This document shows, piece after piece, positions 6,247 to 60,263 of a DNA stretch of 64,000 nt (positions are counted from its first letter, which is position 1; the number at the start of each line of letters is the position of its first letter). Source of the stretch: Closterium sp. NIES-65 (Eukaryota > Streptophyta > Zygnematophyceae > Desmidiales > Closteriaceae); contig CANXME010002576.1 in assembly GCA_948144175.1 (NCBI GenBank), positions 120,072 through 184,071 of the forward strand. The letters are read 5' to 3'. A program made the translations under genes and the position numbers. The notes beneath the pieces are model-generated. The model worked only from the letters and a program-made list of their open reading frames with translations, was not told the origin of the DNA and did no database searches.

Positions 6247-9200
6247 TTATTGGCTTTCACCCCCTGCATCGCCACCAGAGTTGGCATCACCAGCAGGTTC
6301 TTCTGCAGTTGAATCCGCAGCGGCAGCAGCAACAGCGTCAGCAGCTGCATCAGCAGCAGCTTCGGCAGTATCAGCTGCAGTATCAGCAGCAGCATCCCCG
6401 GCACCAGCAGCATCACCGGCAGTAGCAGGAGCCTCAGGAGTTGGAAACATGGATTTGGGCTTTAAGAAGTTTTCATGAACAAATGAGAGTTCATAGCAGC
6501 TGTTACAGCGTGGGTTGGCCTCTGCATTGAAGAGGCGGTAACCCATGTCCTCCAATGGGAAGAGGACTTGCGTGGTCCTGGCCACGTGGCGAATCCTGAT
6601 TGGGCGTGGAAGGGTGTGGAGGACAGAGGGTATAGAGCATGAGCAGATTCGTGCTTCTGTAACCAACAAGGGAACACAGCAGGGTATTGCTGATCACGTA
6701 TGGATCACATACATGTGTATCCATATGGGATATTACATTCGTATCATTCATCATTTTGAGTTCTTGAGCTGCAGTAACTGCATGGTAATACATGGTAACG
6801 AGTGACTCACTGGTGAATCTCCACTAAGATTTGCTCTGCTGGTGGATTCTCCTTGCCAAACGTGTTGAGCAGATCCTCCATGAGCCGCTCCTCACAGCGC
6901 TCACAGTCAATCTGATGGGAAAAGGGGGAAAGGAGGGGGGATGGGGGGGTGAGAGAATGGACAGTGACAGAGAAAGTCACGTGTTGCAAGGGAAGGGCTG
7001 ATGGAATGGGGGGGGGGTGTGCAGATATTCCCTGAGCCGCTCCTCACAATGCTCACAGTCGATCTGAGACAGAGGAGCGAAATGGGGAGAGAAAGGGGTG
7101 ACACTGACACAGAGCGAGGCACATGCTGAGGGGGGATGGCAAGTAGGGCAGCCCGAAGGGGATGTACCACAGGAGGTGCTTGGGGTGCTATATCCTGCGG
7201 CGCACCATGTGAGAGTGGTTGAGTTTCCCCATCAGCTGGGCCAGCGTGGCAAAACGCTTCCCTGGCACCCCTCTCCTGAGCGCCGACAGCTGCTTCCCCG
7301 CGCCCAGCCCGATGGGGATGTACCGCAGCAGGTGCTTGGGCTCATATAAGGCGTGACGTGAGACGATACACACCTTCAGCACGTCGATGTGAGAGTGGTT
7401 GAGCTTCCCCATCAGCTGAGCCAGCGTGGCAAACCGCTTTCCCGGCGCCCCTCTCCGGAGAGCAGAGAGCTGCTTGCCCGCGCCCAGGCCGATGGGGATG
7501 TAGCGCAGGAGGTGCTTGGCCTCATGTAAGCCATGCCAATACACACCCTCCCTCCATTTGAACCATCAATTCGTGTCCTCGTTATAAGACGTTTGAGCAC
7601 ACAAACTCACCTTGAGAACGTCAATATGCGAGTGGTTGAGCTTCCCCATCAGCTGGGCCAGCGTGGCAAACCGCTTCCCCGGCGCCCCCCGCCGTAAAGC
7701 AGAGAGCTGCTTGCCCGCACCAAGGCCGATGGGGATGTACCGCAGCAGGTGCTTGGCTCGCAGCGCTGCTGCCTGCTGGTCGTCCAGAAACGGGTCGAAG
7801 GTGAACGCCTTGGTGCGCAGCCGCTCCCTCACAGCCTGCTCGAAGGAGGTTTCCCCTGCACTGCCCACACTGCAAGGAAGGGAGAAAGGGGAGGGAGAAG
7901 AGGGAAACGAGATGGAAAAGGTCTATCTAAAGGGTCTAGTTTTGAGTAAACTCAAATCTATCTAAAGGGTCTTTTTCCGCTTCCTGTTCCTTCTTTCTTT
8001 GATTTCCCCCTCCCTCACACGGTTCTTCCACCTCTTATTCCTCCCCACCAATCCCCACTCCCCTCGGCTTTCCCATCACCACCCCCCCAACCTTTTCCCC
8101 ACCCCACCTCCCTCACCTTCCTATTTTCCCCTAACCTTTACCCACACCTTTCCCTCTTCCCTGCCCCTCTCAGTTTCGAGATGTCACACGCCCACTGTCT
8201 CTCCCTCCACTCTCCCTTCGCTCTTTGCCCACACACACCCCCCACACACCTTCTCCGCTCCCCACCCCCTTCAGTACCCCCACCCCTTCAAGAACCTCAC
8301 CTGTACACGATAGGCCTCCTGCCCCCTCCTCTCAGTTTCCGGATGTTGCACACCCACTGCCCGTGGGGGAAACAGGGGCGGGTGAGGGGGAACAAGGGCG
8401 GGTGAGGGGGAACAGGGGCGGGTGAGGGGGAACAGGGGCGGGTGAGGGGGAACAGGGGCGGGTGAGGGGGAACAGGGGCGGGTGAGGGGGAACAGGGGCG
8501 GGTGAGGGGGAACAGGGGCGGGTGAGGGGGAACAGGGGCGGGTGAGGGGGAACAGGGGCGGGTGAGGGGGAACAGGGGCGGGTGAGGGGGAACAGGGGCG
8601 GGTGAGGGGGAACAGGGGCGGGTGAGGGGGAACAGGGGCATAGGAACAGGGGTATGGGAACAGGGGCATGGGAACAGGGGCATGAGAACAGGGGCATGGG
8701 GACAGGGGCAGGGCGGGACGGGATAAGGGCATGGGAACACGATAGGCCTCCTGCCTCCCCCTCTCAGTTTCCGGATGTTGCACACCCACTGCCAGTGGGG
8801 GAAACAGGGGCGGGGGCGGGCGGGGACAAAGACAGGGGAGAGGGGGAACAGCGTTGGGGGCAGGGTGGGGCAGGACGGGAACGGGGTAATGGGGACAGGG
8901 ACCGGGGAGGGGATTTAGAGGTAGACTGGAAATTGAGAGAAGATGCGGAGGGAGAGGAAGGCGATAGTGAGGAAGGGTCAAGGGCAAAAGGAGAAGGAAA
9001 TAGATTTCAAGGGCAGATTTCGTCTCTCACTCGTCCATTTGGCCTTCTCCACCAGTAGAGTTACCCCATCAACACCAAATCTGCCCCTTTCCCCCTCGCC
9101 GTCCGCCCCCGTGCCCCCCAGGCGCTCGGCGTGCTTGCAGGGGTAGATGGGCGTGAGGAAGACCTCCTTGATCTTGCCCGGCTTCCCATCAAGGCCTTTC

Positions 9201-10621
9201 CCACCCACCCAGGGCTGCTTCTCACCATCATCCATCACACTCAGATCAGACCTACCAACCACCTTCACCTTGCCCCTCCCTTCGTCCGCCCCCCTCACCT
9301 TTCCGCCTTCTCCGTCCGCCCCCGTGCCCCCCAGGCGCTCGGCGCGCTTGCAGGGGTAGGTGGGCGTGAGGAACACCTCCTTGATCTTGCCCGGCTTCCA
9401 CCGCGGGAACGGCGGCTCGGGGCGCTTGCCCCCTGTCAGCTCGTTCCGCCGCGCCAGACGCATCTGGGGAAGGAGGCGGAGGAGAAAGGAGGAAAGGGGA
9501 GGGGGGGGGGGGGGGGGTTTGGGGGGAGGGAGGGGGGGGGGGAAAGGGGGTTTGGTGGAAGCGGACAATGAAATTCACAACAATAACCTATAAGGTAAAG
9601 GTGCATGTAGCATTGACACACATAAGACTTTTGAGTCGACTCAAAAGTCACAACAATAACCTATAAGGTGAAGGTGCATGTAGCATTGACACACATAAGG
9701 CCACGCAACGCAACACCTGCAAGATTCGTTCCTCCCAAGACACTGATATCTGACATCTAAATCAAGCTCCGTCTTTCCACCATCAGCGCCTCTTACTCTC
9801 CCACCCGAACAGTTCCTTTCTCCCTGAAAACAACCCTGACCTGACAGTGACACTTTGACACATATACATTGATATCGCAATCTGTAACTGGCATTATTCC
9901 TAGTTCTCGCCTGGTGTTCCGCCTCCGCGCTCACATTTTCCCCTCCTCCATCTCCCTCACAATGTATCCAATCGGCGCATTTAGATGCGTACGAATTGAG
10001 TCGCGATTTTCGTCTGATATTCCGCCTCCACGCTCACCTACTCTTGCTCTGAATTCATCTTTCCGTCATCGGGCTGTCTCAGATCGACGCTTCGAGAACA
10101 ACATCCAACATAACTTCAGATACCTCACCTGGTATTCCTCCGCGCTCACACACTCCTGCTCCTCCGCATCGCCGATCAGACCATCTCATATTGATGCATT
10201 TCCCGAAATGTCGATTTTTTATTCCGGGCTAAACATTATTTCTCACCTGGTATTCCGCCTCCGCGCTCACGTACTCCTGCTCCTCTTTACTCAACCGCTT
10301 CCCCTTCGGCCCGTGCTCCACTGGACGGCTCAGATCGAAATCCGGCAGGAATGGCGCCGCGCCTACGCCACCCTTTACGAACGACATTTCCCCCGCGTCA
10401 TCCCCCTCCCCCCCGCCTTCCTCCATGACGTCCGCGCTTTCCCCCCCTCCGCGCGGGTTCTTTGCGCCGGGCTGCGCGGATGATGCTTTCGTGGCGACGT
10501 TAGCGCCGGTGTACGAAATGACCAAAATGACGCACGCAGCGGAAATGAGGAAGACTATACAGGGGATCAACGATCTTGCACCCCCTTCGGCCTTTTTGCG
10601 ACCGGCTTTGACGCGGTTCAT
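6247..10621 (-). CDS. METTL24-like type II membrane protein with Methyltransf_22-type domain
   Basis: Six exons on the minus strand: 10621-10247, 9463-9299, 8356-8301, 7869-7611, 6911-6811, 6595-6247; GT..AG junctions and phases agree, giving 434 residues. The N-terminus is basic, followed by one membrane span (about 18-37), then a lumenal stem. The catalytic-like domain shows WVCNIRK (exon 3), IVYSVGSAGETSFEQ (exon 3/4 junction), HIDVLKIDCE (exon 4/5 junction), VEIHQ, and GYRLFNAEANPRCNSCYELS (exon 6), the pattern of METTL24/FkbM-like methyltransferases. The C-terminus is an Ala/Asp-rich low-complexity tail. Probable secretory-pathway (Golgi) location; substrate unknown. Degenerate copies of exons 1 to 5 lie in the introns; only the copies listed have both correct acceptor and donor in phase. 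Confidence 0.72.
6995..7070 (-). pseudogene. Shadow copy of methyltransferase exon 5 start
   Basis: At 7028-7068 the start of exon 5 (the IDCE-CEERL segment with its CAG acceptor) is repeated, about 155 bp upstream of the real exon on the minus strand, then breaks off without a donor. Confidence 0.6.
7193..7537 (-). pseudogene. Two shadow copies of methyltransferase exon 4
   Basis: The 3' two thirds of exon 4, from KHLLRYIPIGLGAGK to the LNHSH motif, is repeated at 7386-7537 and again at 7193-7331, downstream of the real exon on the minus strand. The reading is close to identical but the copies lack the acceptor side, and the last lacks a proper donor. Confidence 0.7.
7922..7972. repeat. Palindrome-centred duplication, 16-bp arms
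   Basis: TCTATCTAAAGGGTCT at 7922-7937 is repeated exactly at 7957-7972. Between them sits the palindrome-like TTTTGAGTAAACTCAAAT. Confidence 0.8.
8370..8640. repeat. 20-bp G-rich minisatellite, about 14 units
   Basis: Near-perfect tandem copies of a 20-bp unit (GGGGCGGGTGAGGGGGAACA) inside intron 2 of the methyltransferase gene, immediately upstream (sense strand) of the exon 3 acceptor. On the sense strand it forms a long C-rich tract. Confidence 0.9.
8740..8810 (-). pseudogene. Shadow copy of methyltransferase exon 3
   Basis: The WVCNIRKL exon with its CAG acceptor is repeated here but the donor is lost (the sequence continues into G-rich repeats). The 20-bp minisatellite separates it from the real exon 3. 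Confidence 0.7.
9097..9187 (-). pseudogene. Shadow copy of methyltransferase exon 2
   Basis: The 3' half of exon 2 (IKEVFLTP-YPCK-AERLGGTGADGEG) is repeated downstream of the true exon 2 without a usable donor. Confidence 0.7.
9575..9699. repeat. Palindrome-centred duplication, 52-bp arms
   Basis: A 52-bp segment at 9575-9626 is repeated at 9648-9699 with one mismatch. The spacer is the perfect palindrome containing CTTTTGAGTCGACTCAAAAG (9627-9648). Confidence 0.9.
9905..10170 (-). pseudogene. Decaying tandem copies of the exon 1 end of the methyltransferase gene
   Basis: The last 40 to 50 nt of exon 1 with its donor region recur at about 9905-9950, 10012-10055 and 10122-10170, spaced 107 to 119 bp from each other and from the real end at 10247. 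Divergence grows with distance, as in an old tandem array. Confidence 0.65.
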
Positions 10622-13948: not shown

Positions 13949-14459
13949 ATGGCCAGAAATAGCTGGCCTTCGAGGCTGCAGTACAGAGTGCTGTTCTCGT
14001 TCTGCGTCGCCATGGCTCTCGTCTCGTCAGTCTATTCAGCCGACCCCGTGACGCTAAATGCCGAGATTTGTACGTTCATTCAGACGCCCACCACCTCTTA
14101 CTCCAGTAGCTTTTGAGTCAAACTTGAAAGTTCCCGCAGCCGACCCCGTGACCCTAAATAGCAACATATGTGCGTCCTTTTAGATACCCACTAGCTCTCA
14201 GCTCAGAAGCTTTCGTACGTCAGGGCACCACATGCTAGTCTACTCTCCTCGCATCTGCACACAGCCCCCTTTTGAGACGTCTCAAAACTCTCCTCGCGTC
14301 CGCACCCAGCCCCCTTCCCTTTCGCACCTCCTGCACCTCCGTCCGTGCAGCACAAGCGATGGCGAATATAGTGACGAGTCTTGACGCGCCAGCTTTGTCT
14401 GGCATTCACAGACTAATCTTCTCCTCTCGCGTTTCTCCCCACCCTCCCCTTCCCGCACA

Positions 14460-14493
<34 letters not shown>

Positions 14494-16679: not shown

Positions 16680-16759
<80 letters not shown>

Positions 16760-21112: not shown

Positions 21113-22558
21113 TCAGGCTGCTTCCTCCTCCCATGCATCGTCCACATCAGCACTGAGATGAGACAAACCAATCTTGGGTTTTTTAGCTGCCCGAGGCTCT
21201 GCCTCTTGCCTCGCCCCTTCCTCCTTCCCTTCTCCTCCCTTGTCAGCCCCTCTGTCCTCCTTCTCCCCATCCTCCTGTCTCCTACGAACCCTCTCCTTCC
21301 CTTCCACCTCCCCTTCTCCCCTCTCCTCTCCCGAATCTTCTGCCTTCCCTTCTCTCTTCCCTTCTCCCTTCCCCCCGTCCCCCGCCATCTCACCAACTCC
21401 AAAAGCACTTTCTCTTCTCTCCTGCTCATGACTGTCACTCCCCGCTCTTCTCTCAACCCCTCCCTCCTCTTTCGCCTCCCCTCCTTCCCCTCCTTTCCCT
21501 CCTTCTCCCCCTTTCCCTCCCTCTCCCCCTTCCCCTCCCTCTCCTCCTTCCCCAACATCCTTTCCCGTTCCTCCCTCCCCGCCCTTCCCTTCCTCCCCTT
21601 CTACTTCCCTGTGCGTCCCATCCCCTCCTTTCTCCTCCCCCCCAGAGTGTTCCTTCTTCCCCTTCTCCTTGCCCTTGCCTCCACCACTGCTGATTAACTC
21701 CTCCTCCAGACCCTCCAATAGTCTCTTGATCTCCTCATTCCCAGCCAAATCAGCCGCCTTCTCGCCACTTTTGTTCCGCATACCTAATAGCTCCTTGCCC
21801 CCCTTCCTAGCCAGTAACCTAACTACCTCCGGAAAGTTCTTGGAAGCTGCAAAGTGCAAGGCAGTCATGCCCTTTCTAGTGGCCGCGGCCGGCTTTGCTC
21901 CTTCCGTCAGCAGCGCACGCGTGGCGCTGATGTGGCCCTTCTGCGCTGCGAAGTGGAGCGCTGACGTGTCGTCCGCGGCTGCTGCGTTGACTGCCGCCTT
22001 GCTGGCGCACAACAGGGTGATGACGTCAGCGTGGCCCGCCCAGGCTGCTAGATGGAGCCTGATTGGACGAGCAGTGCGAGACGAAGAGGGACATAGGAGA
22101 GGGGGAGGTGGAGGGAGAGGGGAAGGGGTAGGGTTCGGGAAAGAAGGAAAGATGCGAGCGCGGGAGGATATGGTGGAGGTGGGTGGCGGGGATGGGAAGG
22201 GGAGAGAAGGGAGAATGGGGGGGAAACGAGGATACTCGATGAAGCATAACAGGGAAGCCTAGGGTTGCCGATGATAAGAAAAATTAGCCGGCATCAGGGA
22301 GATAAGGTGAATTATCGGAATTCATAGAGGGCCAACTTAGGGTTTTCAAGGGCAGAATGGACTGATGAGATAGCACAGCAGTTAACCGCGTGTAACAACG
22401 CCGAACAGCATCTCGGCTCTTTGAGACGTCTCAAATTTCGCTGGCTCTTACGGCGTGCGGTTCAGCTTATCGCGAGCGTTGACGTCGGCGCCATCCACCA
22501 CTATCATCCGTCGAACCGCCTCCAAGTCGCCGTTTCGTGCGGCCGTGTGAAGTTCCAT
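21113..22558 (-). CDS. Ankyrin-repeat protein with charged low-complexity C-terminus
   Basis: Two exons on the minus strand: 22558-22452 and 22058-21113, 350 residues. Exon 1 begins MELHTAARNGDLEAV and ends in the codon completed as TPLHLAAWAGH by exon 2, a textbook ankyrin junction that fixes the intron (donor GTAAGA, acceptor CAATCAG). Three ankyrin repeats follow (TPLHLAA, SALHFAAQKGH, TALHFAASKNF), then a Gly/Glu/Lys-rich tail of about 200 residues and a basic motif AAKKPKIG near the C-terminus that could act as a nuclear signal. Probable protein-protein adaptor; partner unknown. Confidence 0.82.
22420..22435. repeat. TTTGAG-ACGT-CTCAAA palindrome without clear flanking duplication
   Basis: Perfect 16-bp palindrome in the ankyrin intron 17 bp from the donor. 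Flanks share only a short GGCTCT. Confidence 0.8.
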
Positions 22559-25087: not shown

Positions 25088-28000
25088 ATGGCATCCCGGA
25101 CCCTCGCTTCTTGTCGAGTTGCGCTAATCGCGGCGTCAATCGCGCTGCTTGTGATGCTCGCTGGAATCCCATCAACGGCTGCCGTCGCACCTGCGCCAGT
25201 TGCGGTGCACTCGAGCATGTGTAAGCGCCAACTCCTCCGTCCCTCTCTCCGTCCCCACTCTCCATCCCTCCGTCCCCTCTCCATCCCCACTCTCCATCCC
25301 CACTCTCCATCCCCCACTCGACCGTGCGGAAGCTCCCCGCTCGCTCCCGGGCTCCTTCTACCCGCTTCCCGTTTTCCGTCCACCTCTTCGATCCCCCGCT
25401 CCGTTTCCCCCGTGCCGTTCCCCCCTCTCCGTCCCGCTCTGCGCCCCCCTCCCTGCTCCCCTGGTTCCTTCCGCGCACGTCCCAGATTACACGCCCCAGC
25501 CTCCCCCCTTCGCCAGTTCTTTCCGCCTGCTTTCCGGTCTCTCCCTCCTCTCACATTCCCCCACCGCTCCCAGACTCTCCCCCCTTCCCTTCCGCAACCC
25601 CCGGCCTCCCCCCTTTTTCTCCTCCTCTCTCTTCCCCTTCCTTCCACCTTCCTCCCCTCTCCCCAACCCCCCTCACTTCTCAACTCCGCTAACTAGCCTT
25701 TTCGGCTCACCCTCTCTGTTGTAACTCTCTGGTTTTCCGCCCTTCGTTTCCGCAGTCCAACCGCTAAGCGCACTGGGCAAGGCGTTGCGAGTGCCGAGCA
25801 GCTATGGTTGGTTGGGCACGCGCGAGTGCAACGACGGGTGGACGGGCGTCGTGTGCGACGCGGACGGCAAGCCGATTTCGATGTGCGTATTAGTTTTGAG
25901 TTTGCTTCGACAGTAGTGCAGTTCGCTGAAAATGTGTGTCACGTCGTGAAGATTTTTGCGTTCACTAGCTACAATTAACAAATCGCTTACTGTTTGTTCC
26001 TGCCCTACAAATTAATCCGTCCATTTGTATATCCATCCCTCCATCTAACTATCCTTCCATCCGGTCATGCAGACAATTCAAGTCATCATTTAATGGAGGA
26101 TTCCTCTCTGCTGACGTCATCAAACTCACATCACTCAAATCTCTGTACGTTTCACATGATACAACCTTCTCGCACCATGTACTGTGCAAGGCAAGCTGGT
26201 TATAGGAGACTACTTCCCCTAGCGAAGGAGGAAGGTCCTGGGTATACTACATCCTGGATCCCATTTCTCATGTTTTATACTAGATAAATATGTATATTAT
26301 ATATGTATATATATATAAATCCCAAGTATCTAATCATGTACATTTATTCGTTTTTTGTGTATCCTATTATGCACTGTATGCAGGCTTCTTGACCAGGTGA
26401 ACATCGGGGGCTTGATTCCAGCAGGCATGGATAGCCTTCAGCTTCTCACCTCGCTGTAAGCCTCAGCGCATTCGTTATAAGCACATGCCGCTCAGTCAGA
26501 TCACGTGCCATCTGTTGCAGTCACACACTGTTGAATACTCGCGCTCACCACCCTTTCCCCCAACCCCCGTTCTCTCCCCCCCTCTCTTTTTCCGCCTTCC
26601 GCCTTCCTCCTTCCCCCACTCCCCCCACGCAACACGCGCAGGTCTCTGAACGGAAAGTATTTAAGGGGGGAAGTCCCGCCTGCATTGGGAGAACTCACCA
26701 ACCTCGTGCATCTGTGAGTTCTGCCTCAGGTGCTGCCTCAGGTGCTGCCTCGGGTGCTGCCTCAGGTGCTGCCTCAGGTGCCTTGGTGCTGCGTGTTGCC
26801 TCAGGTGTTGTTTTCATTTGGTCCATCAGGTGGTTGCAGTTTCACTTCCCAGGTTCACTTACCAAGTCCCACTCTGTTTTCGATTCCTCAGCCTCCTTAC
26901 ACTCTTGCTCACCCCTCTCCGCCCCTCTCCACCCCACGCTATCCCTGGCAGGTCCATCAAGGGCGGCGATCTCTTCGGCGGTCTCCCAGAGGAGCTCAGC
27001 TCTCTCACGCGCCTCATCCACCTGTGAGTGCCTCGCAGCAGTGCGCGTGTGCTCATTTGTTTGTGTGTGTATGCACATACTTGTGCGTGTGCGTGTGCGT
27101 GTGCGTGTGCGTGTGCGTGTGCGTGTGCTTGTGCGTGTGCTTGTGCGTGTGCGTGTGCTTGTGCTTGTGCGTGTGCGTGTGCTTGTGCTTCCGCCCTCAC
27201 TCCTTTCAGCCCCTCTGTTCGGCCAGACACTCAAATCCAAAGAGACCATCTCAACACATTCTCCCACCCCCCTCCCTCCCTCCCTCCCTCCCTCCCCCCA
27301 GCGCCATGGGCTCAAAGCCCTCCTTCGACCAGCTCACCAACGTACGAGGACCCCTTCCTGACATTGGGAATCCCCCAATCACCCCCCCATCTCGTCTCCC
27401 CCATCCCCCCCAATCTCGTCCCCCCATCCCTCCCCTTTCCCCTCCCCCCAGCGCCATCGGCTCCAAGCCCTCCTTCGACCAGCTCACCAACGTACGAGGA
27501 CCCCTTCCTGACATTGGGAATCCCCCAATCACCCCCCCATCTCGTCTCCCCCATCCCCCCCAATCTCGTCCCCCCATCCCTCCCCTTTCCCCTCCCCCCA
27601 GCGCCATCGGCTCCAAGCCCTCCTTCGACCAGCTCACCAACGTACGAGGACCCCTTCCTGACATTGGGAATCCCCCAATCACCCCCCCATCTCGTCTCCC
27701 CCATCCCCCCCAATCTCGTCCCCCCATCCCTCCCCTTTCCCCTCCCCCCAGCGCCATCGGCTCCAAGCCCTCCTTCGACCAGCTCACCAACGTACGAGGA
27801 CCCCTTCCTGACATTGGGAATCCCCCAATCACCCCCCCATCTCGTCTCCCCCATCCCCCCCAATCTCGTCCCCCCATCCCTCCCCTTTCCCCTCCCCCCA
27901 GCGCCATCGGCTCCAAGCCCTCCTTCGACCAGCTCACCAACGTACGAGGACCCCTTCCTGACATTGGGAATCCCCCAATCACCCCCCCATCTCGTCTCCC

Positions 28001-31000
28001 CCATCCCCCCCAATCTCGTCCCCCCATCCCTCCCCTTTCCCCTCCCCCCAGCGCCATCGGCTCCAAGCCCTCCTTCGACCAGCTCACCAACGTACGAGGA
28101 CCCCTTCCTGACATTGGGAATCCCCCAATCACCCCCCCATCTCGTCTCCCCCATCCCCCCCAATCTCGTCCCCCCATCCCTCCCCTTTCCCCTCCCCCCA
28201 GCGCCATCGGCTCCAAGCCCTCCTTCGACCAGCTCACCAACGTACGAGGACCCCTTCCTGACATTGGGAATCCCCCAATCACCCCCCCATCTCGTCTCCC
28301 CCATCCCCCCCAATCTCGTCCCCCCATCCCTCCCCTTTCCCCTCCCCCCAGCGCCATCGGCTCCAAGCCCTCCTTCGACCAGCTCACCAACGTACGAGGA
28401 CCCCTTCCTGACATTGGGAATCCCCCAATCACCCCCCCATCTCGTCTCCCCCATCCCCCCCAATCTCGTCCCCCCATCCCTCCCCTTTCCCCTCCCCCCA
28501 GCGCCATCGGCTCCAAGCCCTCCTTCGACCAGCTCACCAACGTACGAGGACCCCTTCCTGACATTGGGAATCCCCCAATCACCCCCCCATCTCGTCTCCC
28601 CCATCCCCCCCAATCTCGTCCCCCCATCCCTCCCCTTTCCCCTCCCCCCAGCGCCATCGGCTCCAAGCCCTCCTTCGACCAGCTCACCAACGTACGAGGA
28701 CCCCTTCCTGACATTGGGAATCCCCCAATCACCCCCCCATCTCGTCTCCCCCATCCCCCCCAATCTCGTCCCCCCATCCCTCCCCTTTCCCCTCCCCCCA
28801 GCGCCATCGGCTCCAAGCCCTCCTTCGACCAGCTCACCAACGTACGAGGACCCCTTCCTGACATTGGGAATCCCCCAATCACCCCCCCATCTCGTCTCCC
28901 CCATCCCCCCCAATCTCGTCCCCCCATCCCTCCCCTTTCCCCTCCCCCCAGCGCCATCGGCTCCAAGCCCTCCTTCGACCAGCTCACCAACGTACGAGGA
29001 CCCCTTCCTGACATTGGGAATCCCCCAATCACCCCCCCATCTCGTCTCCCCCATCCCCCCCAATCTCGTCCCCCCATCCCTCCCCTTTCCCCTCCCCCCA
29101 GCGCCATCGGCTCCAAGCCCTCCTTCGACCAGCTCACCAACGTACGAGGACCCCTTCCTGACATTGGGAATCCCCCAATCACCCCCCCATCTCGTCTCCC
29201 CCATCCCCCCCAATCTCGTCCCCCCATCCCTCCCCTTTCCCCTCCCCCCAGCGCCATCGGCTCCAAGCCCTCCTTCGACCAGCTCACCAACGTACGAGGA
29301 CCCCTTCCTGACATTGGGAATCCCCCAATCACCCCCCCATCTCGTCTCCCCCATCCCCCCCAATCTCGTCCCCCCATCCCTCCCCTTTCCCCTCCCCCCA
29401 GCGCCATCGGCTCCAAGCCCTCCTTCGACCAGCTCACCAACGTACGAGGACCCCTTCCTGACATTGGGAATCCCCCAATCACCCCCCCATCTCGTCTCCC
29501 CCATCCCCCCCAATCTCGTCCCCCCATCCCTCCCCTTTCCCCTCCCCCCAGCGCCATCGGCTCCAAGCCCTCCTTCGACCAGCTCACCAACGTACGAGGA
29601 CCCCTTCCTGACATTGGGAATCCCCCAATCACCCCCCCATCTCGTCTCCCCCATCCCCCCCAATCTCGTCCCCCCATCCCTCCCCTCTCCCCTCCCCCCA
29701 GCGCCATCGGCTCCAAGCCCTCCTTTAGCCAGCTCACCAACATTCGAGGACCCCTTCCTGACATTGGGAATCCCCCAATCACCCCCCCATCTCGTCTCCC
29801 CCATCCCCCCCAATCTCGTCCCCCCATCCCTCCCCTCTCCCCTCCCCCCAGCGCCATCGGCTCCAAGCCCTCCTTTAGCCAGCTCACCAACATTCGAGGA
29901 CCCCTCCCTGCTGCCTACTCAACCCTCGTGGCCCTACAGTACCTGTAAGCCCTCCTCCCCCACCCCACCCCACCCCACCCCACCCCACCCCACCCCACCC
30001 CCCCCTACCACCCCTCCTTTCCTGCCGCCTGCTCAGCCCTCGTTTCCCTACAGTACCTGTAAGCCCTCCCCCTCCCCCACCTCCTCCCCCCCGCCTTGCC
30101 ACGCGTACTCAACCCTCGTGGCCAGTACTTTTGAGTCGACTCAAAAGTCAGCTCAACCCTCGTGGCCCTACAGTACCTCAGAGTCCTCATTTGTCCTTCC
30201 TGTAAGCCCCACCCTTTATTCTTTCCCCCTCTTCCCTCATCCCCCGTTATTCTTTCCCCCTCTTCCCTCATCCCCCGTTATTCTTTCCCCCTCTTCCCTC
30301 ATCCCCCTTTATTCTTTCCCCTCTTCCCTCATCCCCCTTTATTCTTTCCCCCTCTTCCCTCATCCCCCTTTATTCTTTCCCCCTCTTCCCTCATCCCCCT
30401 TTATTCTTTCCCCCTCTTCCCTCATCCCCCTTTATTCTTTCCCCCTCTTCCCTCATCCCCCTTTATTCTTTCCCCCTCTTCCCTCATCCCCCTTTATTCT
30501 TTCCCCTCTTCCCTCATCCCCCTTTATTCTTTCCCCCTCTTCCCTCATCCCCCTTTATTCTTTCCCCCTCTTCCCTCATCCCCCTTTAGTCTTTCCCCCT
30601 CTTCCCTCATCCCCCTTTATTCTTTCCCCCTCTTCCCTCATCCCCCTTGATTCTTTCCCCCTCTTCCCTCATCTCCCTTTATTCTTTCCCCCTCTTCCCT
30701 CATCCCCCTTTATTCTTTCCCCCTCTTCCCTCATCCCCCTTTATTCTTTCCCCCTCTTCCCTCATCCCCCTTTAGTCTTTCCCCCTCTTCCCTCATCCCC
30801 CTTTATTCTTTCCCCCTCTTCCCTCATCCCCCTTTATTCTTTCCCCCTCTTCCCTCATCCCCCTTTATTCTTTCCCCCTCTTCCCTCATCCCCCTTTATT
30901 CTTTCCCCCTCTTCCCTCATCCCCCTTTAGTCTTTCCCCCTCTTCCCTCATCCCCCTTTATTCTTTCCCCCTCTTCCCTCATCCCCCTTGATTCTTTCCC

Positions 31001-34943: not shown

Positions 34944-37900
34944 ATGCAGAAGTGGCTGGGCGAGCTCCCCGAGGAGCGCCGGTCGCAGATCTTCAGCGGC
35001 GTCGCGGGCGCCGGTGCAGGTGAATGGCCACGTCAGACTCTTGTTGACTCGTCAGACTCTTCTCACTTCAGACTTGATCGATTGTTTCAAAATGCGCACA
35101 AGTGCCATTCCAACCATTCCCCATTTCTCTTCCGTCTCCTTCCCGTCTCCATTCCGTCTCCTCTCCCTTTTCTCTCCGTCTCCTTCCCGTCTCCATTCCG
35201 TCTCCTCTCCCATTTCTCTTCCGTCTCCTTCCCGTCTCCATTCCGTCTCCTCTCCCTTTTCTCTCCGTCTCCTCCGTCTCCGTTATCCCGCGTACCAATC
35301 CAATCGCCAGGCGCCATAGCCGCCACGTTAGTCGCGCCGCTCGATGTCGTCAAAACGCGGCTGCAAGTGCAGTCAATCCCTCGCTCCCGGCCACAACCGG
35401 CTGCCGGCAGCTCTACCGGCCAAACAACCGGCAGCCTCACGGCCGCCGCCCAACTCAACCAACACTCCAACCCTACCCCAGCGCAACCCTCTAACCGCGC
35501 AAGCGGTAACCTGGGCGTTTCCGCTTCCGCTTCCCCGTCCCCTTCTCCGCACGCGCAAGCTACAGTTCCCCCCTGCAGCTCCGCCAATCCCGCCTTCCCC
35601 TCTACGCACTCGGGGGGGGGCCGCTCCTCCGCCGCAGGTTTCCCCGTTATGAGCAGCCTCGCTGGAAGAAACGGGCTTTCTATTGCACGCGCAGGGATAG
35701 GCAGGCAAGCGGGCGCGGGACACGAAGCCTCCGCTTGCGCCACATCGGGGGGGGCCGCATTCCCGCCCGCCTGGTTCCCCGCACTCCCCGGGGCCTCCGC
35801 TTCCCCCCCGGGGAAATGCAGCTGGGAGCGGGGCGGGCGCAGCAGGGGCGCATGCGCGCGCGGGTAGGGCGGCGGGCGCGAAGGCGGGGGTGATTGCGAC
35901 GACGCTCCGCGCCATCTGGCGGGAGGAGGGCATCCGCGGGCTGTACAGGGGACTCTGCCCCTCCGTCGTGGCGCTGCTGCCGAACTGGGCGGTAAGGAGG
36001 GCGCGTTGGGGGAAAAAAGGGGGGGAATGGGGCAGGAGGGGGAGGGGGGTAAGGGGATGAGGGCATCCGCGGGCTGTACAGGGGGCTGTGCCCCTCCGTG
36101 GTTGCGCTGCTGCCGAACTGGGCGGTAAGGGGAACGTGGGGCAGGGGCTGAGAGGGGAGAGGAGGAGGATGGGGGAGGGGCGGTTTCGAAAGGGGAGGGA
36201 ATGTACAGGGGGTTGTGCCCGTTCGGGGTTGCGCTGCTGCTGAACTGGGCGGTAAGGGGAGGGTGAGCTGGAAGAGGGGGAAGAGAGGCGGGTTGGTGCA
36301 AAGGAAAAGGGAGAGGGGGTTGAAAAAAATAACAGAAAACGAAACATTGACAAAAACAGAAGCAACAGCAACAACGAAGCAAACAAGAGCGGGAGCAGAG
36401 AGGAGAGAGGGGGGAACTCCGTTCAAACCTACTCCGTTAAGAGGTGTAATTCTCAGTGTACGGCCATCTCAAGAAGATGCTCAAAGCGAGGAGCCATGGG
36501 CATCCCCTCTCTCATGCTTAGGCTAACATGTTGTTCGCTCCAACCCATCACCCCACAGGTGTACTTTTCAGTATACGACCATCTCAAGAAGATGCTCAGT
36601 GCACCCGACTCCCATTTCCCCGGGAGCAGCAGCAGCAGCGCAGGGAGGGTATGCACGGAGGAAGGGTGCGCTGGTAGTGCCAGCAGCACACTCGCCAGCA
36701 CCCCTGGTGTGAGGTGCACGGGGGTGTCCTGTACAGGGGACTGCACGGGCTAACATGTGGTCTGCCCCGACCTTGCCCCACCTCCCTCCCCACCCACAGG
36801 TGTACTTTTCAGTGTACGACCATCTCAAGAAGATGCTCAGTGCACCCGACAGCGCAGGGAGGGTATGCACGGGGGAGGGCTGCACTGGTAGTGCCAGCAG
36901 CACGGGAGGCAGCACCTCTGGTGTCACGTGCACGGGGGTGGCCTGTACAGGGGACTGCACTGGAGTCCCCTTCCCCTCCTCCTCCTCTGCCCCTCCGCCG
37001 CTGCTCACCAGCGTTACGGCAGCAGCGGGTGCCGGTGCTGCCACTGCCATTCTCACCAACCCCCTCTGGGTCGTGAAAACGCGCCTGCAGGTATGCAAGG
37101 GGGAGTTCAATAACGCGTATACGAGGGCTGCTTGTAAAGTTGCAGAGAAACAAAGAGACTGTGTTGCTTGCAGGAGGGTGGGTGGGTGGCAACAGGTGCT
37201 GCCACTTCCTTTCTCACCAATCTCCTCGGGGTCGTGAAAATCCGTCTGCAGGTAAGAGGTGGGGGGGGATGATAACAGGTGTACCAAGGCTGTTTGTTCA
37301 GTGGAAGGTTCTTTAGTCGACAAAAACAGGTGGAGGGGGGAGATAATCATGCGTACACCAAGGCTGCTCGTTCAGTGGCAGAGAAACAAAGCGCTGCTAG
37401 CAGGGGGGTGGTTAGCAACCAGTGCCATTCGTCTGACCAAACCGCTCTGGGTTGTAGAAACTCGCTTGCTGGTATGGGGGAGGGTAACAGCCGCATGCCT
37501 CTCCCGTGCCTGCCCCACGCCTGTCACCTGGTATGTTTTTGAGAATTCTTAAAAACACCCTGCAGCATCATGGGGGAGGGTAACAACCGCGTGCCTCTCC
37601 CGTGCCTGCCCCATGCCTTCCCCAATTCTCTCCCATGCCTTTTCCAACTTCGATGTTTCCTTCCTCATGCTCCCTTTTCCCGCCACACGCCAGACCCCAC
37701 TGGGGTCTGCTCCCCCACACCGCCATTCAGCCGTCGGCTCCCTACAAGGGCATCAATCTTTCCTACAATCACTGACCCCGCTTTCCTGCTTCCCCCTTCC
37801 CTGCCCTATTCCTATTCCTGCCAGTCCCACGGGGACTTCCCCTTCCCCTTCACTCAACCGCATGGATGTCTACCTACTAAGGCATCAATCACTGAACCAC

Positions 37901-51100: not shown

Positions 51101-54100
51101 CGATCCCCACTTACCTTTTTAGTCGTCAGCGTGGGACCGACCGACACAACCTACTCCCTCATGCTCATCTCCAGTAGGCGATTTCTCATTTCCCCAGGAA
51201 GTCTTCTCCGTCCCCACTGATTTTGGAGGCGCCTCAAAAACACTTTCACAGAGGTCTTCCCCACCCCACTGATCGTGCTAGCCATTTGGCCTGCTTCCTG
51301 CCTCTTCTCCAGCAAGCCTTTTCCCCTAAACCCGCCTTCCCTCCTGGTTTCACAGCAAGTCTTTCCCCTCACACTTCCACTTGTCGCTCACCCATTTGTG
51401 CCACGTGTCAGGCGTTCACGGATTGACTGAGCTCAACGTGGAGTGGTGTGCGCTTCTCAGTAACACGGGCCTCAAGCACATGCAAGGTGGGACAGTAGGA
51501 ATAGGGGGGATTGAAGCGGGGGAATGTGGAGGGGAGAGCACTGGGGTTTGGAGCGGAAGTGGGTTGGGGGGAACGTGGAGTGGTGTGCGCTTCTCAGTAA
51601 CACGGGCCTCAAGCACATGCAAGGTGGGGGAGAGAAAGGGGGAAGCGGGGGAGGGGACGGGAGGGATGGGAGGGGAGGGGAAAGGGGGAGACGGGAGGAG
51701 GGGGGGAACGTGGAGTGGTGTGCACTGCTCGCTAACATAGGCCTCAAGCATCTCCAAGGTGGGGGGGGGCTGTAGGGGAAGGGTTGGGGGAGGGGAGGAG
51801 GGGGGTAAGGGGCATGGGAAGCGGGGAGGCGCGGGAAGAGGGGAGGCGCGGGAAGAGGGGAGGCGCGGGAAGAGGGGAGGCGCGGGAAGCGGGGAGGCGC
51901 GGGAAGCGGGGAGGCGCGGGAAGCGGGGAGGCGAGGGTACGGAATAAGGTTTGGAGCGGAAGTGGGTTGGGGGGGTGTGGTGCCGCGTGCATTGCACACC
52001 AACACAGGCCCAAGATGCTGTAGGGTTTTTTTGAGAATTCTCAAGGCGCCTCAAAAATTGAGAATTCTCAAAAAAGCCCTATTGCCCACCAACACAGGCC
52101 CACGCACCTGCAAGGTGCTTCCTCTCTCCCCCTTCTTAAGGCGCCTCAAAAACATTGAGGCACCTCAAAACGCGGGAGTGGGTGGTGGGGAACGTGGAGT
52201 GGTGTGCATTTTCCGCCATCACAAGCCCAAGCACCTGCAAGGTGCTTCCTCTCTCCCCCTTCCTCCGTTCTCACGCATTTCACATTGCAGAATCTCGCCC
52301 GCACCTGCTTTGGAATCATCACACCAATTCCCCCCCACCACCCCCTCCCACTCACCACCTGTGCTTGAGATTTTTCTCTTTACTTGTTGCACTGTCCGAT
52401 TTTGCTTTTTCCCCTCTACTCTGCCCTTCCCACCCTTCTCTTCCCGCCCTTCCCTTCCCGCCCTTCCCTTTCCCCCCTTGCTTTTCCCCCCTTTTCTTTC
52501 CACCCTTGCTTTTCAACCCTGCTTCCCATCCACGTGCTCTCATGCGTCTCACATCTCAATCTGGCCTATACCCACTTTGGCTACTTCCTCCCTCTCTGCT
52601 TACCTTCTCCTCCCATTCTTTTTTCCCTCCCTTCCTCTCCCCCCTCCACCGCCCCTCCCTCCCAGCCTCCCCACCTCCACAGCTTTCACGCGTCTCACGT
52701 CTCTCATCCTGGCCTACACCCGCTTTGGTGTCATAGACACCCCTCCCCGTCCCCCTACCCGTGCTTCCCCTTTTTCTCTTTACTCGTTGCCCCTCCCTCC
52801 AGCTCTCACACGTCTCACGTCTCTCAACCTGGCCTACACCCGCTTTGGCGTCATCGACACACCCCGCAACAGGAGCATGCAGAGTGCTCCTTCCTTCATC
52901 TCCTGTAAGCCTCCCATCCCTCTCTCCTTGTCACCCACTTTGCTATATCAACTCCTCCCTCTCTATCACCCACTTTGCTCAACACCTTCCGCTTATCGTA
53001 CACTCTCCTCTATCAGTGCCTTTCACCTGTCACGTGTTTTTTTCTACATACTCCTTCATTCACCTTGCTCTTGCTCTATCGATCCTGTCCTTTATTACAA
53101 AGAAAAACTATCGACCCTGTCACCCCATTTTGTCCTCTATTGCGATCCATTACCCCACAGGGTAACCACCACCTCTACAGGAGTTTGTTGTTTTGATTAA
53201 TTCACTTTCCTCCCTCGCAGTCCTTCCCCACACGTTCTGTCTCTGCTGTGCTCTGCTCCCTTGCGTCGATTTGAGACATCTCAAAAGCCACGTGATAAAA
53301 GTGTTGTTGTGAGACGTCTCAAAAGCCACGTGATAAAAGTGTTGTTTTGAGACGTCTCAAAACAACACTTTTATCTCCTCCCTCGCAGTCCTTCCCCACA
53401 CGATCTGTCTCTGCTGTGCTCTGCTCCCTTGCATCGAATTACTCACTACCACTTTCCCACTCTTTCCCCACCCCTCTATTCTCCCCCTCCCCTCCACACC
53501 GACCACCCACCAACCCCCACTGCAGCGCTGCGCTCCCTCCGCCACCTCAACCTTGACTCATCACGCGTCAACGACCTTGCCATGGGAGAACTTGCAGGTG
53601 AACACATCCGTCTCTTTCCTTTTTTTCATTTTTTCCATTTACAAGTTGGAAAGGTTCCCAACTCTCTCATTATTCCCCTCTCATTGTAACCCTGCTGTAT
53701 GATTCCTCACAGGTCTAACTGCCTTGGAGAGCCTTGATCTGTCAGACTCCACAGTGGGCGATGCAGGGATTCGCAGCGTCTCTGGTAAGCAGTTGTAGTA
53801 GACATGCCCCTTCCCTCACCTCATCCCTCACCTCCCTTCCCCGCCCTTCCCCGCCCTTTCGCACCCTTCCCTTCCTGCCTCTCACAACGTTGACCTCGTC
53901 CCACCTCTCCCTCCTCCACTTCTTTCACCATCCCCTCCTTCTCTACTGCCATGACTCGTCTCTAAACCCTCACCCTCGGTTACTGCAATGTCACCGACGG
54001 TGGTGTGGGCAGCACTACCCTATCTCTTGACACTCCCCACCGCTCCCCACCTTCCCCTCTTCCCTCCCAATACAGCCATGACTCGTCTCTCCTCCCTCAA

Positions 54101-56174
54101 CCTGAGCTACTGCAACGTCACTGATGGCGGTGTGACCAGCATCACCCACCTCTCCACCTCTTCACCTCGCTCCACCTCTCTCCATTTCTCCCCACTTTCC
54201 CTTCTTCCCTCCCAATACAGCCATGACTCGTCTCTCCTCCCTCAACCTGAGCTACTGCAGTGTCACAGATGGCGGTGTGACTAGCATCGCTCACCTCTCC
54301 GCCCTCACATCCCTCTCCCTTGACACTCGCTCCATCACTGATGCTGGGCTGAAACGCCTGTCAGGTGAGTTCGTACCACTTTTCAGTCAAAACAAACTCC
54401 TCTCCTTCCTTGACCTGTCTCTCCAAGAATCATGGGTTGTGTTCGCCCACCTCTCCGCCCTCACCTCCCTCTCCCTCGACTCTTGCTCCGTCACCGACAC
54501 TGGGCTGAAGCGACCATCAGGTGAGATGGAAAGGTTGTCAGATAAGTTGCGAGATGAAACGGCTGTCACATGAGACGGTTGTGAGGTGAGATGAAACAGC
54601 TGTCAGATCATAGCCCGTCCAAAGTCTCATCATTTCTTTTCCATTCTCACCCCTTCACCCTCCCGTCCTTTCCCCATCTCCCGTTTTCCCTTCGCTCTGT
54701 TGTCTTTCTTGTTGTCCGCCCCACCCCACACAGCCCTGACCAAGTGACTTTTGAGTCGACTCAAATGTTTCCCCATCTCCCGTTCTCTCTTCTCTCTGTT
54801 CTCTCTGTTGTCTTTCTTGTTGTCCGCCCCACCCCGCACAGCCCTGACCAACCTCACCAACCTAGACTTGTTTGGAGCACGGGTGACGGACGAAGGCATG
54901 GCAGTGCTCAAGGGTGAGTTGGAAGGAGGGGAGAAAGGGGCTCAACAAATGGGGGATGGGGGAAATAGAATGGGGGAAGAAGAAGTGAGGAGGGTGGGAA
55001 TTCGGGGGACGGGGTATGAGGGTGACAAACGAGCTGTCCTTCTGCCCCTTGCTCCCCTTGCTCCATATGTGCCCCTTACCCCAGGATTCAAGAAGCTTCG
55101 GGTGTTGGAGGTGTGTGGGGGCGGCATCACGGACAAGGGAGTGAAGGAGCTTTCCTCACTGCCCCTGAACTGCCTCACACTCTCCTTCTCCTTCCTTCAT
55201 GCTTCCCACGTAACCCTAGCGCAGGCTTCAAGAAGCTTCGGGTGTTGGAGGTGTGTGGGGGCGGCATCACAGACCAGGGAGTGAAGGAACTCGCTTCTCT
55301 GCCCCAACTGGCCTCCCTCAACGTCTCTCAGAACCAGCGCATCACCGACGCTGGTGTCAAGGCTCTGGCAGGTGGGATGGGGAGGGGAATGCTTCCGTGT
55401 TAGACATACTTTGAATGGTGTGTGCTGCTGCTGTCCCAACTGGCCTCCCTCAACGTCTCTCAGAGCCAGCGCATCTCTGATGCGGGCGTCAAGGCTCTGG
55501 CAGATTAAGGAAGAAGAAGAAGACGACAAAAAGAAACAAGCAAAACACAGCATATGTTGGTACACTAAGCAGTAACGTGTGCAGCTGCATTGCATAGCAC
55601 CTGCTAAGCATGTGCTGTGTACGCTAGCATTCTCCGATGTCTCTCGGAACCAGCACATTTGGGACACTCCGAGTTGAGGCACGTGTAGAGAGGGTAATTC
55701 TGAGACGTCTTAAAACCCTCTCTACACATGTGCTGTGTACGCTAGCATTCCTCGATGCCTCTCTGAACCAGCACATCACGGACACTCGAAGTAGAGGCTT
55801 TTGCATGCGAGATAAAACATTGTCTATTATCGAAACCACACTGTCTTGTGAATCGTGTGAGGGAATCAGCACTCTGGTTCTTCCTTATCGCCCTCTTCTG
55901 TCCTCACAAGATTCCCTCTTTGCCCCACACCAACCCCCCCCCCCCCTGCCCCCCCCTTCCCCTTTCCACACCTGCAGCACTCACCACTCTCGAAACCCTC
56001 AACCTCTCGGGATCAGGAGTAACCCGCAATGGCCTCTGCCACCTGCTCGCCCTCTCCCGCCTCACCTCCCTCTCCCTGCACGGCTGCAAGGTGCACAGAG
56101 CGCATCTCAATCACCTGCTCGTCTCCCCTCTCTGTGACTGGGACCCGAGCCTCACCGTTACAGGGGTTAACTGA
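45180..56174 (+). CDS. RNI-type leucine-rich-repeat protein of the plant MGGACSR family
   Basis: Fifteen exons: 45180-45490, 45726-46848, 47128-47256, 47741-48797, 49236-49382, 50082-50231, 50970-51044, 51412-51486, 52803-52904, 53526-53597, 53713-53784, 54221-54364, 54842-54913, 55225-55371, 55978-56174; every phase agrees, 1290 residues. The N-terminus MGGACSRR fits N-myristoylation and is shared with a plant LRR family. Exon 2 is a Ser/Gly/Ala/Gln-rich insert. Exons 3-4 cover LSLPLLHALPAPLLE and YPNLNDRWLELLSPH, with a large low-complexity insert in exon 4. From residue about 860, RNI-type LRRs follow, one or two per exon, in the order of land-plant homologues (LDLFGARVTDEGM, LEVCGGGITDQGV, LNVSQN). 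No F-box seen. Role unknown, perhaps a membrane-anchored scaffold. The gene is unusually rich in partial exon copies. Confidence 0.82.
47290..47512 (+). pseudogene. Two shadow copies of RNI-LRR exon 3
   Basis: LQSLLHVLVHVRELSLPLLH coding sequence recurs at 47302-47390 and in part at 47430-47510; the first keeps GAGGTATAA at the donor, the second GTGGTCAGC. Confidence 0.75.
49099..49690 (+). pseudogene. Shadow copies of RNI-LRR exon 5
   Basis: An exon start copy at 49099-49159 precedes the real exon (49236-49382), and two partial copies follow at about 49440-49555 and 49625-49680, all with acceptor-like or LRR-coding pieces but incomplete. (The real exon lies within this span.). Confidence 0.7.
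49784..50035 (+). pseudogene. Two shadow copies of RNI-LRR exon 6
   Basis: LNV-WCTSLDDDDMA copies at 49784-49862 and 49907-50025, each with acceptor but no donor, precede the complete exon at 50082. Confidence 0.75.
50297..50392 (+). pseudogene. Downstream shadow copy of RNI-LRR exon 6
   Basis: Repeats LASLHSLNVSRCKITDLGLTA with acceptor and GTAAG donor but has an in-frame TAA just before it. Confidence 0.75.
50395..50715. repeat. 80-bp tandem array with nested hairpins
   Basis: Four units spaced exactly 80 bp (TGTCCCTCTG at 50461, 50541, 50621, 50701). The first holds a long inverted repeat (ACAGATAGGGTCGTC against GACGACCCTATCTGT); the others hold GAAATCATGC...GCATGATTTC. Confidence 0.9.
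51122..51180 (+). pseudogene. Shadow copy of RNI-LRR exon 7 end
   Basis: Degenerate copy of the exon 7 3' end (GACACA-CCT-CTC-CTCATCTC-AGTA). Confidence 0.55.
51201..51272. repeat. Palindrome-centred duplication, about 20-bp arms
   Basis: GTCTTCTCCGTCCCCACTGA (51201) recurs as GTCTTCCCCACCCCACTGA (51253). Between lies TTTTGGAGGCGCCTCAAAAA, the GCGC-centred form of the palindrome. Confidence 0.65.
51569..52255 (+). pseudogene. Five or more shadow copies of RNI-LRR exon 8
   Basis: Pieces of the exon coding NVEWCALLSNTGLKHMQ recur near 51572, 51706, 51990, 52082 and 52189, at increasing divergence and without usable acceptors. A 17-bp GAGGCGCGGGAAG-type array (about 51820-51945) lies among them. 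Confidence 0.7.
51989..52115. repeat. Palindrome-centred duplication with compound palindrome
   Basis: ATTG-ACACCAACACAGGCCCA flanks (51991 and 52081) enclose 52026-52075, made of TTTTTTGAGAATTCTCAA, GGCGCCTCAAAA and TTGAGAATTCTCAAAAAA: two AATT-centred palindromes around a half GCGC one. Confidence 0.8.
52105..52263. repeat. Palindrome-centred duplication, about 32-bp arms
   Basis: CACCTGCAAGGTGCTTCCTC and its C-rich continuation at 52105-52137 recur at 52232-52263. Directly after the first copy lie AAGGCGCCTCAAAA and TTGAGGCACCTCAAAA. Confidence 0.75.
52270..52745 (+). pseudogene. Three shadow copies of RNI-LRR exon 9
   Basis: LTSL-LAYTRFGVIDTP-coding pieces occur at about 52270-52325, 52535-52590 and 52676-52745, similarity rising toward the real exon at 52803. 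Confidence 0.75.
53208..53440. repeat. Palindrome-centred duplication, 62-bp arms, with 42-bp perfect palindrome
   Basis: 53208-53270 recurs at 53378-53440 with two or three mismatches. The 107-bp spacer has three GAG-AC(G/A)T-CTC palindromes, two 22-bp copies of AGCCACGTGATAAAAGTG-type sequence, and a perfect 42-bp palindrome at 53333-53374 centred on GACGTC. Confidence 0.9.
53949..54175 (+). pseudogene. Two shadow copies of RNI-LRR exon 12
   Basis: CCATGACTCGTCTCT-openings at 53949 and 54079 code for the same LNLSYC-VTDGGV repeat as the real exon at 54221. The nearer copy is better preserved and has the acceptor AATACAG. A copy of the second half lies at 54440-54525. Confidence 0.8.
54670..54850. 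repeat. Palindrome-centred duplication of intron end plus acceptor
   Basis: About 74 bp ending in the acceptor and first codons of exon 13 (CACAGCCCTGACCAA) at 54670-54743 recur at 54769-54850, where they lead into the true exon. CTTTTGAGTCGACTCAAATG lies exactly at the junction. Confidence 0.85.
55083..55200 (+). pseudogene. Shadow copy of RNI-LRR exon 14
   Basis: FKKLRVLEVCGGGITDKGVK with acceptor, 142 bp upstream of the real exon; loses frame after SLPLN. Confidence 0.8.
55435..55800 (+). pseudogene. Further copies of the exon 14 end, two around a hairpin
   Basis: LASLNVSQSQRISDAGVKAL at 55440-55505 ends in-frame at TAA. Diverged copies at 55609-55657 and 55727-55776 (about 49 bp) flank GAGACGTCTTAAAA set in an 11-bp-armed hairpin (TGTAGAGAGGG / CCCTCTCTACA). 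Confidence 0.75.

Positions 56175-60191: not shown

Positions 60192-60263
<72 letters not shown>

Follow-up and report, generated by a model that had tools for sequence, protein, structure and literature searches.

Short hairpin palindromes at the junctions of local duplications in a Closterium genome: a possible mobile repeat consisting solely of a hairpin

Retroposons of the SINE (short interspersed element) type and tailless retropseudogenes are moved in trans by long interspersed elements (LINEs), with variable target duplications and microhomology at their junctions. Transposases leave a fixed short target duplication. Here we analyse a 64,000-nt stretch of the Closterium sp. NIES-65 assembly (the window; contig CANXME010002576.1, positions 120,072 to 184,071), in which short palindromes of the form TTTTGAG-N4-CTCAAAA sit at the junctions of local duplications. 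In behaviour these palindromes appear closest to a trans-mobilised retroposon, and they are probably most like a non-autonomous, retroposon-like repeat. As in SINEs and tailless retropseudogenes, the sequences are short, structured and noncoding, occur in many dispersed copies, and have the SINE-type variable duplications and junction microhomology. They differ in that the hairpin is just ~20-58 bp long (the full arms of a subfamily with an ACGT centre total just ~58 bp), palindromic, apparently tailless and trimmed at both ends, with duplications of 16-98 bp. Long duplications, which widely spaced nicks would explain, are shared with rotifer R9 and the restriction-like-endonuclease LINEs; R9 itself is reportedly an rDNA-specific full-length LINE with a 126-bp duplication. 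Miniature inverted-repeat transposable elements (MITEs) share the short inverted repeats and differ in their short, fixed duplications.

Penelope-like elements also have a palindrome, at the junction of head-to-head inverted repeats, and the cited part of the relevant paper attributes it to self-priming (PMC3846280). The same part describes target duplications and, in one case, a microhomology-mediated 5' junction, features that resemble those reported here. However, Penelope-like elements are long, carry a gene for a reverse transcriptase with an endonuclease (RT-EN) and make duplications of 8-10 bp (PMC3846280, same part), whereas here the palindrome alone is inserted. In the ACGT copies that were read, shared sequence ends at the arm end. 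Palindromes of algal organelles (Lobosphaera LIMP, Volvox) are similarly very short, repeated and lineage-specific. Unlike the present ones, they are organellar and, in the portion of text cited, have no flanking target duplications, and LIMP combines a loop of 7 nt with pentanucleotide repeats (PMC4524435). Arabidopsis SIRC, as far as the cited excerpt describes it, shares short direct repeats around an insert and differs in having diverse inserts rather than one palindrome family (PMC10342631). Among the papers listed by a limited literature search, none described a family combining these features, and the main text of a paper on the Closterium psl. complex contains no word beginning 'palindrom' (PMC10407611).

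The motif is abundant. Across the assembly (874,075,685 bases in 2,400 contigs), TTTTGAG-N4-CTCAAAA has 30,327 exact matches, versus 4 for a reversed control. Within the window, TTTTGAGNNNNCTCAAAA matched 17 times at two or fewer mismatches, where shuffles expect 0.36 and the largest shuffle gave 2. Chance or base composition as the source of the motif is rejected. Genome-wide, the N4 centre is of class NCGN at 24,964 places, and NTAN is almost absent (9); the remaining 5,354 centres (AATT, decayed and other) were left as one class. The genome-wide search for other spacings, which covered 4 and 5-12 bp, placed the half arms 5-12 bp apart at 386 places (control 42), versus the 30,327 at 4 bp. 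Because the spacing is almost always exactly 4 bp, we infer that the centre is copied through, and is not made by sloppy joining. In the rare spacing variants, additional bases separate two intact half ends (e.g., TTTTGAGTC-N5-GACTCAAAA), possibly as a central filler, and at least one variant combines two different half types.

The mixed centre ACGA/TCGT, the one mixed type counted genome-wide, occurs at 114 places, where independent arms would predict ~4,000 by our estimate from the class counts of 93 sites. In the sampled DNA, mixed-looking centres were found at 2 of these 93 sites (GCGA and GCGT). Since mixed centres are rare, the donor was probably a ready-made homotypic hairpin with two like arms. 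Two RNAs copied independently from the target ends and joined at their 5' ends are ruled out by the rarity of both mixed centres and longer spacings.

The sample consists of the window and 20 fetched 10-kb stretches, here numbered with the prefix L (contigs with the prefix C); L016-L020 were chosen for the motif and L021-L035 were taken at arbitrary positions, 2 of these 15 (L022 and L028) having motif matches. These 264 kb contain 74 perfect palindromes that reach 14 bp or more, of which 41 have the GAG-N4-CTC family centre (TCGA in 18, ACGT in 11, GCGC in 7 and AATT in 5). Within the sample, the motif has one of these four centres in nearly every case. No other dispersed palindrome family was found among the 74. 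The unit is a palindrome of ~20-58 bp whose outer arm sequence largely tracks the centre. The arms run up to ~29 nt and differ in sequence between families and subfamilies: TCGA copies often have arms (GAG)GTGAC-TTTTGAGTC and sometimes CATGC-TTTTGAGTC, AATT copies often GAGTGAC-TTTTGAGAA, and long ACGT copies CACGTG-N(~12)-TTTTGAGAC. Short forms keep just a 9-10 nt arm (e.g., L016 6813 and window 14278). The sequence-only reading of this DNA had described palindromes of 16-22 bp with constant outer halves and a variable core; given arms of this length, the constant 18-mer is just a part of the element, and the palindromes are better read as four families by centre (TCGA, ACGT, GCGC and AATT), not freely swapped cores. 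Of its two grounds for proposing a specific process, placement at junctions holds, and core-swapping fits less well with centres that go with their arms and are rarely mixed.

An ACGT subfamily, which includes a 44-bp palindrome in the window (53332-53375), was followed through its 21-nt half arm. Of the 113 exact matches to this half arm in the genome, 79 run on exactly through the centre. We fetched 11 copies, representing 9 distinct loci (two pairs are homologous copies). In 10 of the 11 the shared arm stops at or within GCCACGTGATAAAAGTGTTGTTTTGAGAC / GCCACGTG, no further than 29 nt from the centre; the exception, L052, has a variant arm. Outside the arm end, the sequence differs between loci (by eye). 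That nothing is common beyond this point counts against copying of a chromosomal palindrome together with its flanks. A duplication is present at 8 of the 9 loci (by eye at L050, and around two palindromes at L052). As RNA, the full ACGT consensus is predicted to form a stem of 27 bp closed by a 4-nt loop (-44.2 kcal/mol).

The placement of palindromes at the junctions of local duplications is confirmed beyond chance. The sample contains 72 motif matches; removal of 48 that were clustered or near an edge, and of 2 more in tandem arrays, left 22 isolated palindromes. Under a strict test (repeat score of at least 26, both gaps to the palindrome at most 10 bp), direct repeats abut 12 of the 22, versus 1 of 555 control positions from the same loci. 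With the gap relaxed to 30 bp the counts are 14 of 22 and 14 of 555. Without the tandem-array mask the contrast is weaker (12 of 24 palindromes vs. 86 of 837 controls). Of the 72 perfect palindromes outside the family that reach 12 bp or more, 4 have junction repeats, one in L034 (TRF mask 1.0) and three in a 27-bp array in the window (32587-32703), versus 19 of 45 family palindromes, arrays included. Closer alignment recovers repeats at several of the ten sites missed by the strict test, among them repeats of 22 bp at L018 4619, 28 bp at L016 6813 and 16 bp at window 30137. Comparison with random sites and other palindromes, which formed part of the refutation proposed in the sequence-only reading, leaves junction placement standing in this sample of the genome.

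The sites in the window are as follows.

7938..7956, unstranded: palindromic insert AGTTTTGAGTA-AACTCAAA between identical 16-bp copies (16/16) at 7922-7937 and 7957-7972.
9627..9644, unstranded: TCGA-family insert, its palindrome (GACTTTTGAGTC and reverse complement) overlapping the copy ends; 55-bp copies at 9572-9626 and 9645-9699, 53/55 identical; present also in homologous contig C1975.
14111..14129, unstranded: decayed palindrome between degenerate 62-bp copies at 14037-14098 and 14137-14198.
14271..14286, unstranded: ACGT-centre insert, a minimal 18-bp palindrome, between 29-bp copies at 14242-14270 and 14287-14315.
22419..22436, unstranded: ACGT-centre palindrome (22420) with no repeat around it (score 13).
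30124..30151, unstranded: TCGA-family insert between identical 16-bp copies (16/16) at 30108-30123 and 30152-30167.
31519..31536, unstranded: AAAT-centre palindrome with 44-bp copies at 31404-31447 and 31537-31580 and a T/C-rich microsatellite between the left copy and the palindrome; apparently intronic in a leucine-rich repeat (LRR) gene (by eye), and identical in sequence in C1975.
37523..37569, unstranded: AATT palindrome in a 47-bp insert between 49-bp copies at 37474-37522 and 37570-37618.
51222..51250, unstranded: GCGC-centre insert between weak 24/23-bp copies at 51198-51221 and 51251-51273 (score 25).
52013..52080, unstranded: nested AATT / GCGC / AATT palindromes between 22-bp copies at 51991-52012 and 52081-52102.
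52134..52170, unstranded: two GCGC-type palindromes (one centre GCAC) with 48-bp copies at 52086-52133 and 52213-52260.
53269..53375, unstranded: ACGT family, three palindromes in a 38-bp tandem, between 61-bp copies at 53208-53268 and 53376-53436; the third extends to the 44-bp perfect palindrome at 53332-53375.
54744..54767, unstranded: TCGA-family insert GTGACTTTTGAGTC-GACTCAAATG between 75/84-bp copies at 54669-54743 and 54768-54851.
55681..55726, unstranded: ACGT-family hairpin with long imperfect arms (ACGTG..GAGAC-GTCT..CTACA) between 72-bp copies at 55609-55680 and 55727-55798.

All 13 sites that the sequence-only reading had described as flanked have an alignable direct repeat, one of them weak (51198-51273). 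It had set aside 22420 and 39723 as palindromes lacking flanks; the lack of flanks is borne out at both (39723 scores 15), and 39723 turned out to be a half site and not a palindrome. The segment C1975:175554-180591, homologous to ~5 kb around window 53269-53362, is 37 bp longer, or approximately one 38-bp palindrome unit, which suggests that unit copy number in this array differs between the homologous contigs.

Repeats could be resolved at 30 sites; their copies range from 16 to 98 bp (median 44, taking the mean of the two copies) and differ by 90 substitutions in 1,362 aligned positions (6.6%) and 18 gaps. Duplication ages vary: the copies at L016 9307 are identical (60/60) and others are old. 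The arms mismatch at 48 of 428 positions (11%) as computed, 33 of these coming from shifted or misplaced arms at L018 2387, window 37545 and window 55706; without these three sites the value is 15/365 (~4%). Copies more diverged than arms would be expected of duplications older than the insert, and this idea was rejected since no excess is shown (6.6% vs. 11% or ~4%). By eye, the insert consists of the hairpin and at most ~11 extra nt in the 30 sites, except at window 31527 (89 bp, with the microsatellite) and 37545 (47 bp). Palindrome and flank also occur together in short tandem arrays (e.g., five 37-bp units in L016 and five 53-bp units in L017).

For 20 sites, we built constructs in which the flanks meet directly, the palindrome and one copy being omitted, and compared these with the genome. 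The sequence-only reading had proposed comparison with an allele lacking the palindrome, and this yielded one empty homologous site among the 20 tested, for L018 8410 (C9:123410). The joined construct is matched in one piece at C1759:482229-482515 (287/287 bases, 98%) and in two pieces in C9. The C1759 DNA at this site (601 bases) has a single target copy, and the palindrome is absent. The L028 1872 construct lies in a tandem of palindromes and gave no information. No palindrome-free homologous copy was found for the other 18 sites, whose near-identical contig copies were split or length-shifted, and hence filled. At L016 6776, the homologous copies in C1658 and C347 seem to carry a longer insert than that in C6. 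Relative to the empty sequence, the right copy at L018 8410 carries two substitutions and a 4-bp deletion, and the two palindrome arms also differ, which hints at error-prone copying at this one site. The near-identical contig copies (C2278/C1975, C6/C1658/C347, C9/C1759 and C10/C1610, ~98-100% in the pieces compared) are either haplotypes or large segmental duplications.

The arms end at differing points, and the target there matches the missing arm bases. A usable family template was available for 16 of the 30 sites, the native target being taken from the other copy, and 27 of the resulting 32 junctions were comparable (5 were skipped because the insert was unlike the template or longer). 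The matching runs sum to 44 nt, versus 17.3 (sd 4.9) at random native positions, a total reached in 0 of 5,000 simulations. At least 1, 2 and 3 matching nt were found at 21, 13 and 8 of the 27 junctions, against null values of 11.5, 4.0 and 1.3.

Insertion with a long and variable duplication of the target is well supported. Two alternatives had been set out from the letters, an inserted palindrome with unusually long target duplications and a duplication that came first, and the former is better supported, by the empty site and by repeats that abut the palindrome. We assign a probability of roughly one half to the reading in which the palindromes are a mobile repeat consisting solely of a hairpin, inserted by microhomology priming and probably via target-primed reverse transcription in trans. 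That they constitute a class of mobile element, a bare 20-58 bp hairpin copied from a free RNA or DNA hairpin on which the two target strands prime through microhomology, is a more tentative proposal. The lack of a fixed short duplication and of exact ends is unlike a transposase, and the lack of donor flanks is unlike the copying of a chromosomal palindrome, which leaves a free hairpin. RNA and reverse transcription are preferred given the tens of thousands of copies, and given that the head-to-head palindromes of Penelope-like elements are read as self-priming in the cited part of that work (PMC3846280). The data directly show the size of the family, the exact spacing of the centre relative to longer spacings, homotypic centres, flanking duplications within the sample, one empty homologous site and microhomology at junctions. 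We infer a free hairpin donor, RNA over DNA, two nicks, and a reverse transcriptase from another element (LINE- or Penelope-like).

In the proposed mechanism, the donor would be a free hairpin molecule, most likely RNA, and each target strand would be nicked once, the two nicks lying ~16-100 bp from each other. The first target strand would anneal through its 3' end, by ~1-4 nt close to the stem base, and be extended through the loop into the other arm. The 3' end of the second target strand would anneal likewise and complete the second strand. Once the staggered cut is filled in, the intervening 16-100 bp would be present on either side of the insert. A fraying stem base would account for the loss of outer arms and retention of the centre, and subsequent slippage between copies would yield tandem arrays.

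Several observations weigh against this hairpin insertion reading. The RNA, the enzyme and an autonomous partner were not identified (no genome-wide search for them was made), and no Rfam family reached its gathering score in 124 kb surrounding copies, so that a known RNA family was rejected on that scale. The strict test found no duplication at 10 of the 22 isolated palindromes, as also at window 22419..22436, and none was found on reading the ACGT subfamily copies L054/L055. No tail was seen in the inserts read, and there is no strong nick-site motif over 60 junctions, where the commonest base after the junction is C (27/60). The sites that served to define the outermost GCC of the ACGT template also entered the microhomology test. 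There are 34 ACGT half arms (of the 113) that do not continue exactly into the other arm, 14 of them in three tandem arrays (C1643, C1783 and C1766), and half elements may exist among the 34. Finally, the empty site could also result from exact loss by exchange between the copies, its sequence being compatible with a crossover within the final 7-10 bp of the repeat.

The main rival, which we consider unlikely, dispenses with the RNA step: microhomology end joining would capture a DNA hairpin or short palindromic DNA fragment at a staggered break. It predicts the same anatomy (exact centre, trimmed ends and microhomology at both junctions) and fits the absence of an Rfam family near the copies. 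However, similar hairpin fragments would have to be supplied in many thousands. In end joining, moreover, ends are usually resected, and not duplicated by up to ~100 bp.

Replication template switching, in which a stalled strand jumps to a chromosomal palindrome, copies it and returns 16-100 bp upstream to give a duplication and a templated insert, is quite improbable. Local duplications, microhomology and tandem arrays are all accounted for in this way, but the inserts should often bear donor flanks, and the 30 resolved inserts are mostly bare hairpins with their few extra nt (by eye). It also leaves unexplained why one palindrome family alone behaves like this in the sampled DNA.

We regard a MITE-type DNA transposon with almost no internal sequence and an unusual transposase as very unlikely. 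Inverted arms, high copy number and one target copy at the empty site would suit such an element, whereas duplications of 16-98 bp depart from the fixed short length expected of transposases, and the ends are ragged, the arms stopping at different places with microhomology. No longer element with ACGT arms as terminal repeats was found among the 84 matches listed (40 of 529 candidates scored; a transposase search was not made). Among these 84, the window ACGT-arm matches on both strands share one centre.

It is highly doubtful that the duplication came first, or was later provoked by the hairpin in replication, so that the palindrome just marks the junction. Tandem arrays of palindrome and flank exist, the 5-kb stretch around the window array differs by 37 bp from its homologue, and insert length differs between homologous copies at L016 6776. 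Against this, the one empty site carries a single copy, junction repeats are rare at controls and at other palindromes outside tandem arrays, and slippage of a palindrome-bearing segment would leave two palindromes, not one.

Other candidates were rejected. Telomere-like or tandem addition is represented by a single array, L017 7340-7492, an exception in the DNA read; in it, half units (ACTTTTGAGGCACTTTTGCG) repeat with a 20-bp period up to a palindrome centre, resembling end-to-end copying of one arm. Helitrons are longer elements that insert without target duplication and carry a single hairpin close to their 3' end; here target duplications are present, and the insert is mostly a bare hairpin with a few bases. 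Viral or prokaryotic spread was dismissed: CTTTTGAGNCGNCTCAAAAG has 0 matches in viral contigs and 8 in prokaryote genomes, approximately the chance level by our estimate, 6 of the 8 with non-palindromic centres and 0 of the 8 with flanking repeats. An algal organelle palindrome is inconsistent with a window in an 874-Mb assembly that has kinase and mitochondrial-carrier exons, a Copia-like element and intron-bearing LRR-like genes (by eye).

The window contains other repeats. A 150-bp unit, seemingly an LRR exon and intron, is repeated 17.5 times at 27290-29910 with 99% matches, apparently a recent amplification. Remains of a Copia-like retrotransposon with SH3_retrovirus and RVT_2 domains occupy 58393-62467, and the RVT_2 protein at 60860-62467 is part of this element. 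Elsewhere in the sample, L030 and L032-L034 are nearly pure satellite (TRF mask 0.86-1.0; in L030 a 17-bp unit over 10 kb), and motif matches are absent from them.

If the hairpin insertion reading is true, an insertion of a hairpin alone that duplicates 16-100 bp would set a lower size limit for mobile sequence. The palindromes would be among the smallest dispersed mobile elements in any nuclear genome, with duplications often longer than the element. In a single lineage, probably of streptophyte algae, they would have given rise to local duplications by the tens of thousands, and they would be a prolific source of short duplications, possibly of exon edges and splice sites; at window 31404-31580, the end of an LRR exon with its splice site is apparently duplicated (by eye). 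The many thousands of junctions would provide a natural dataset on two-ended priming of one structured template. Both the rule of microhomology and the division into four centres can be tested directly, here and in related genomes.

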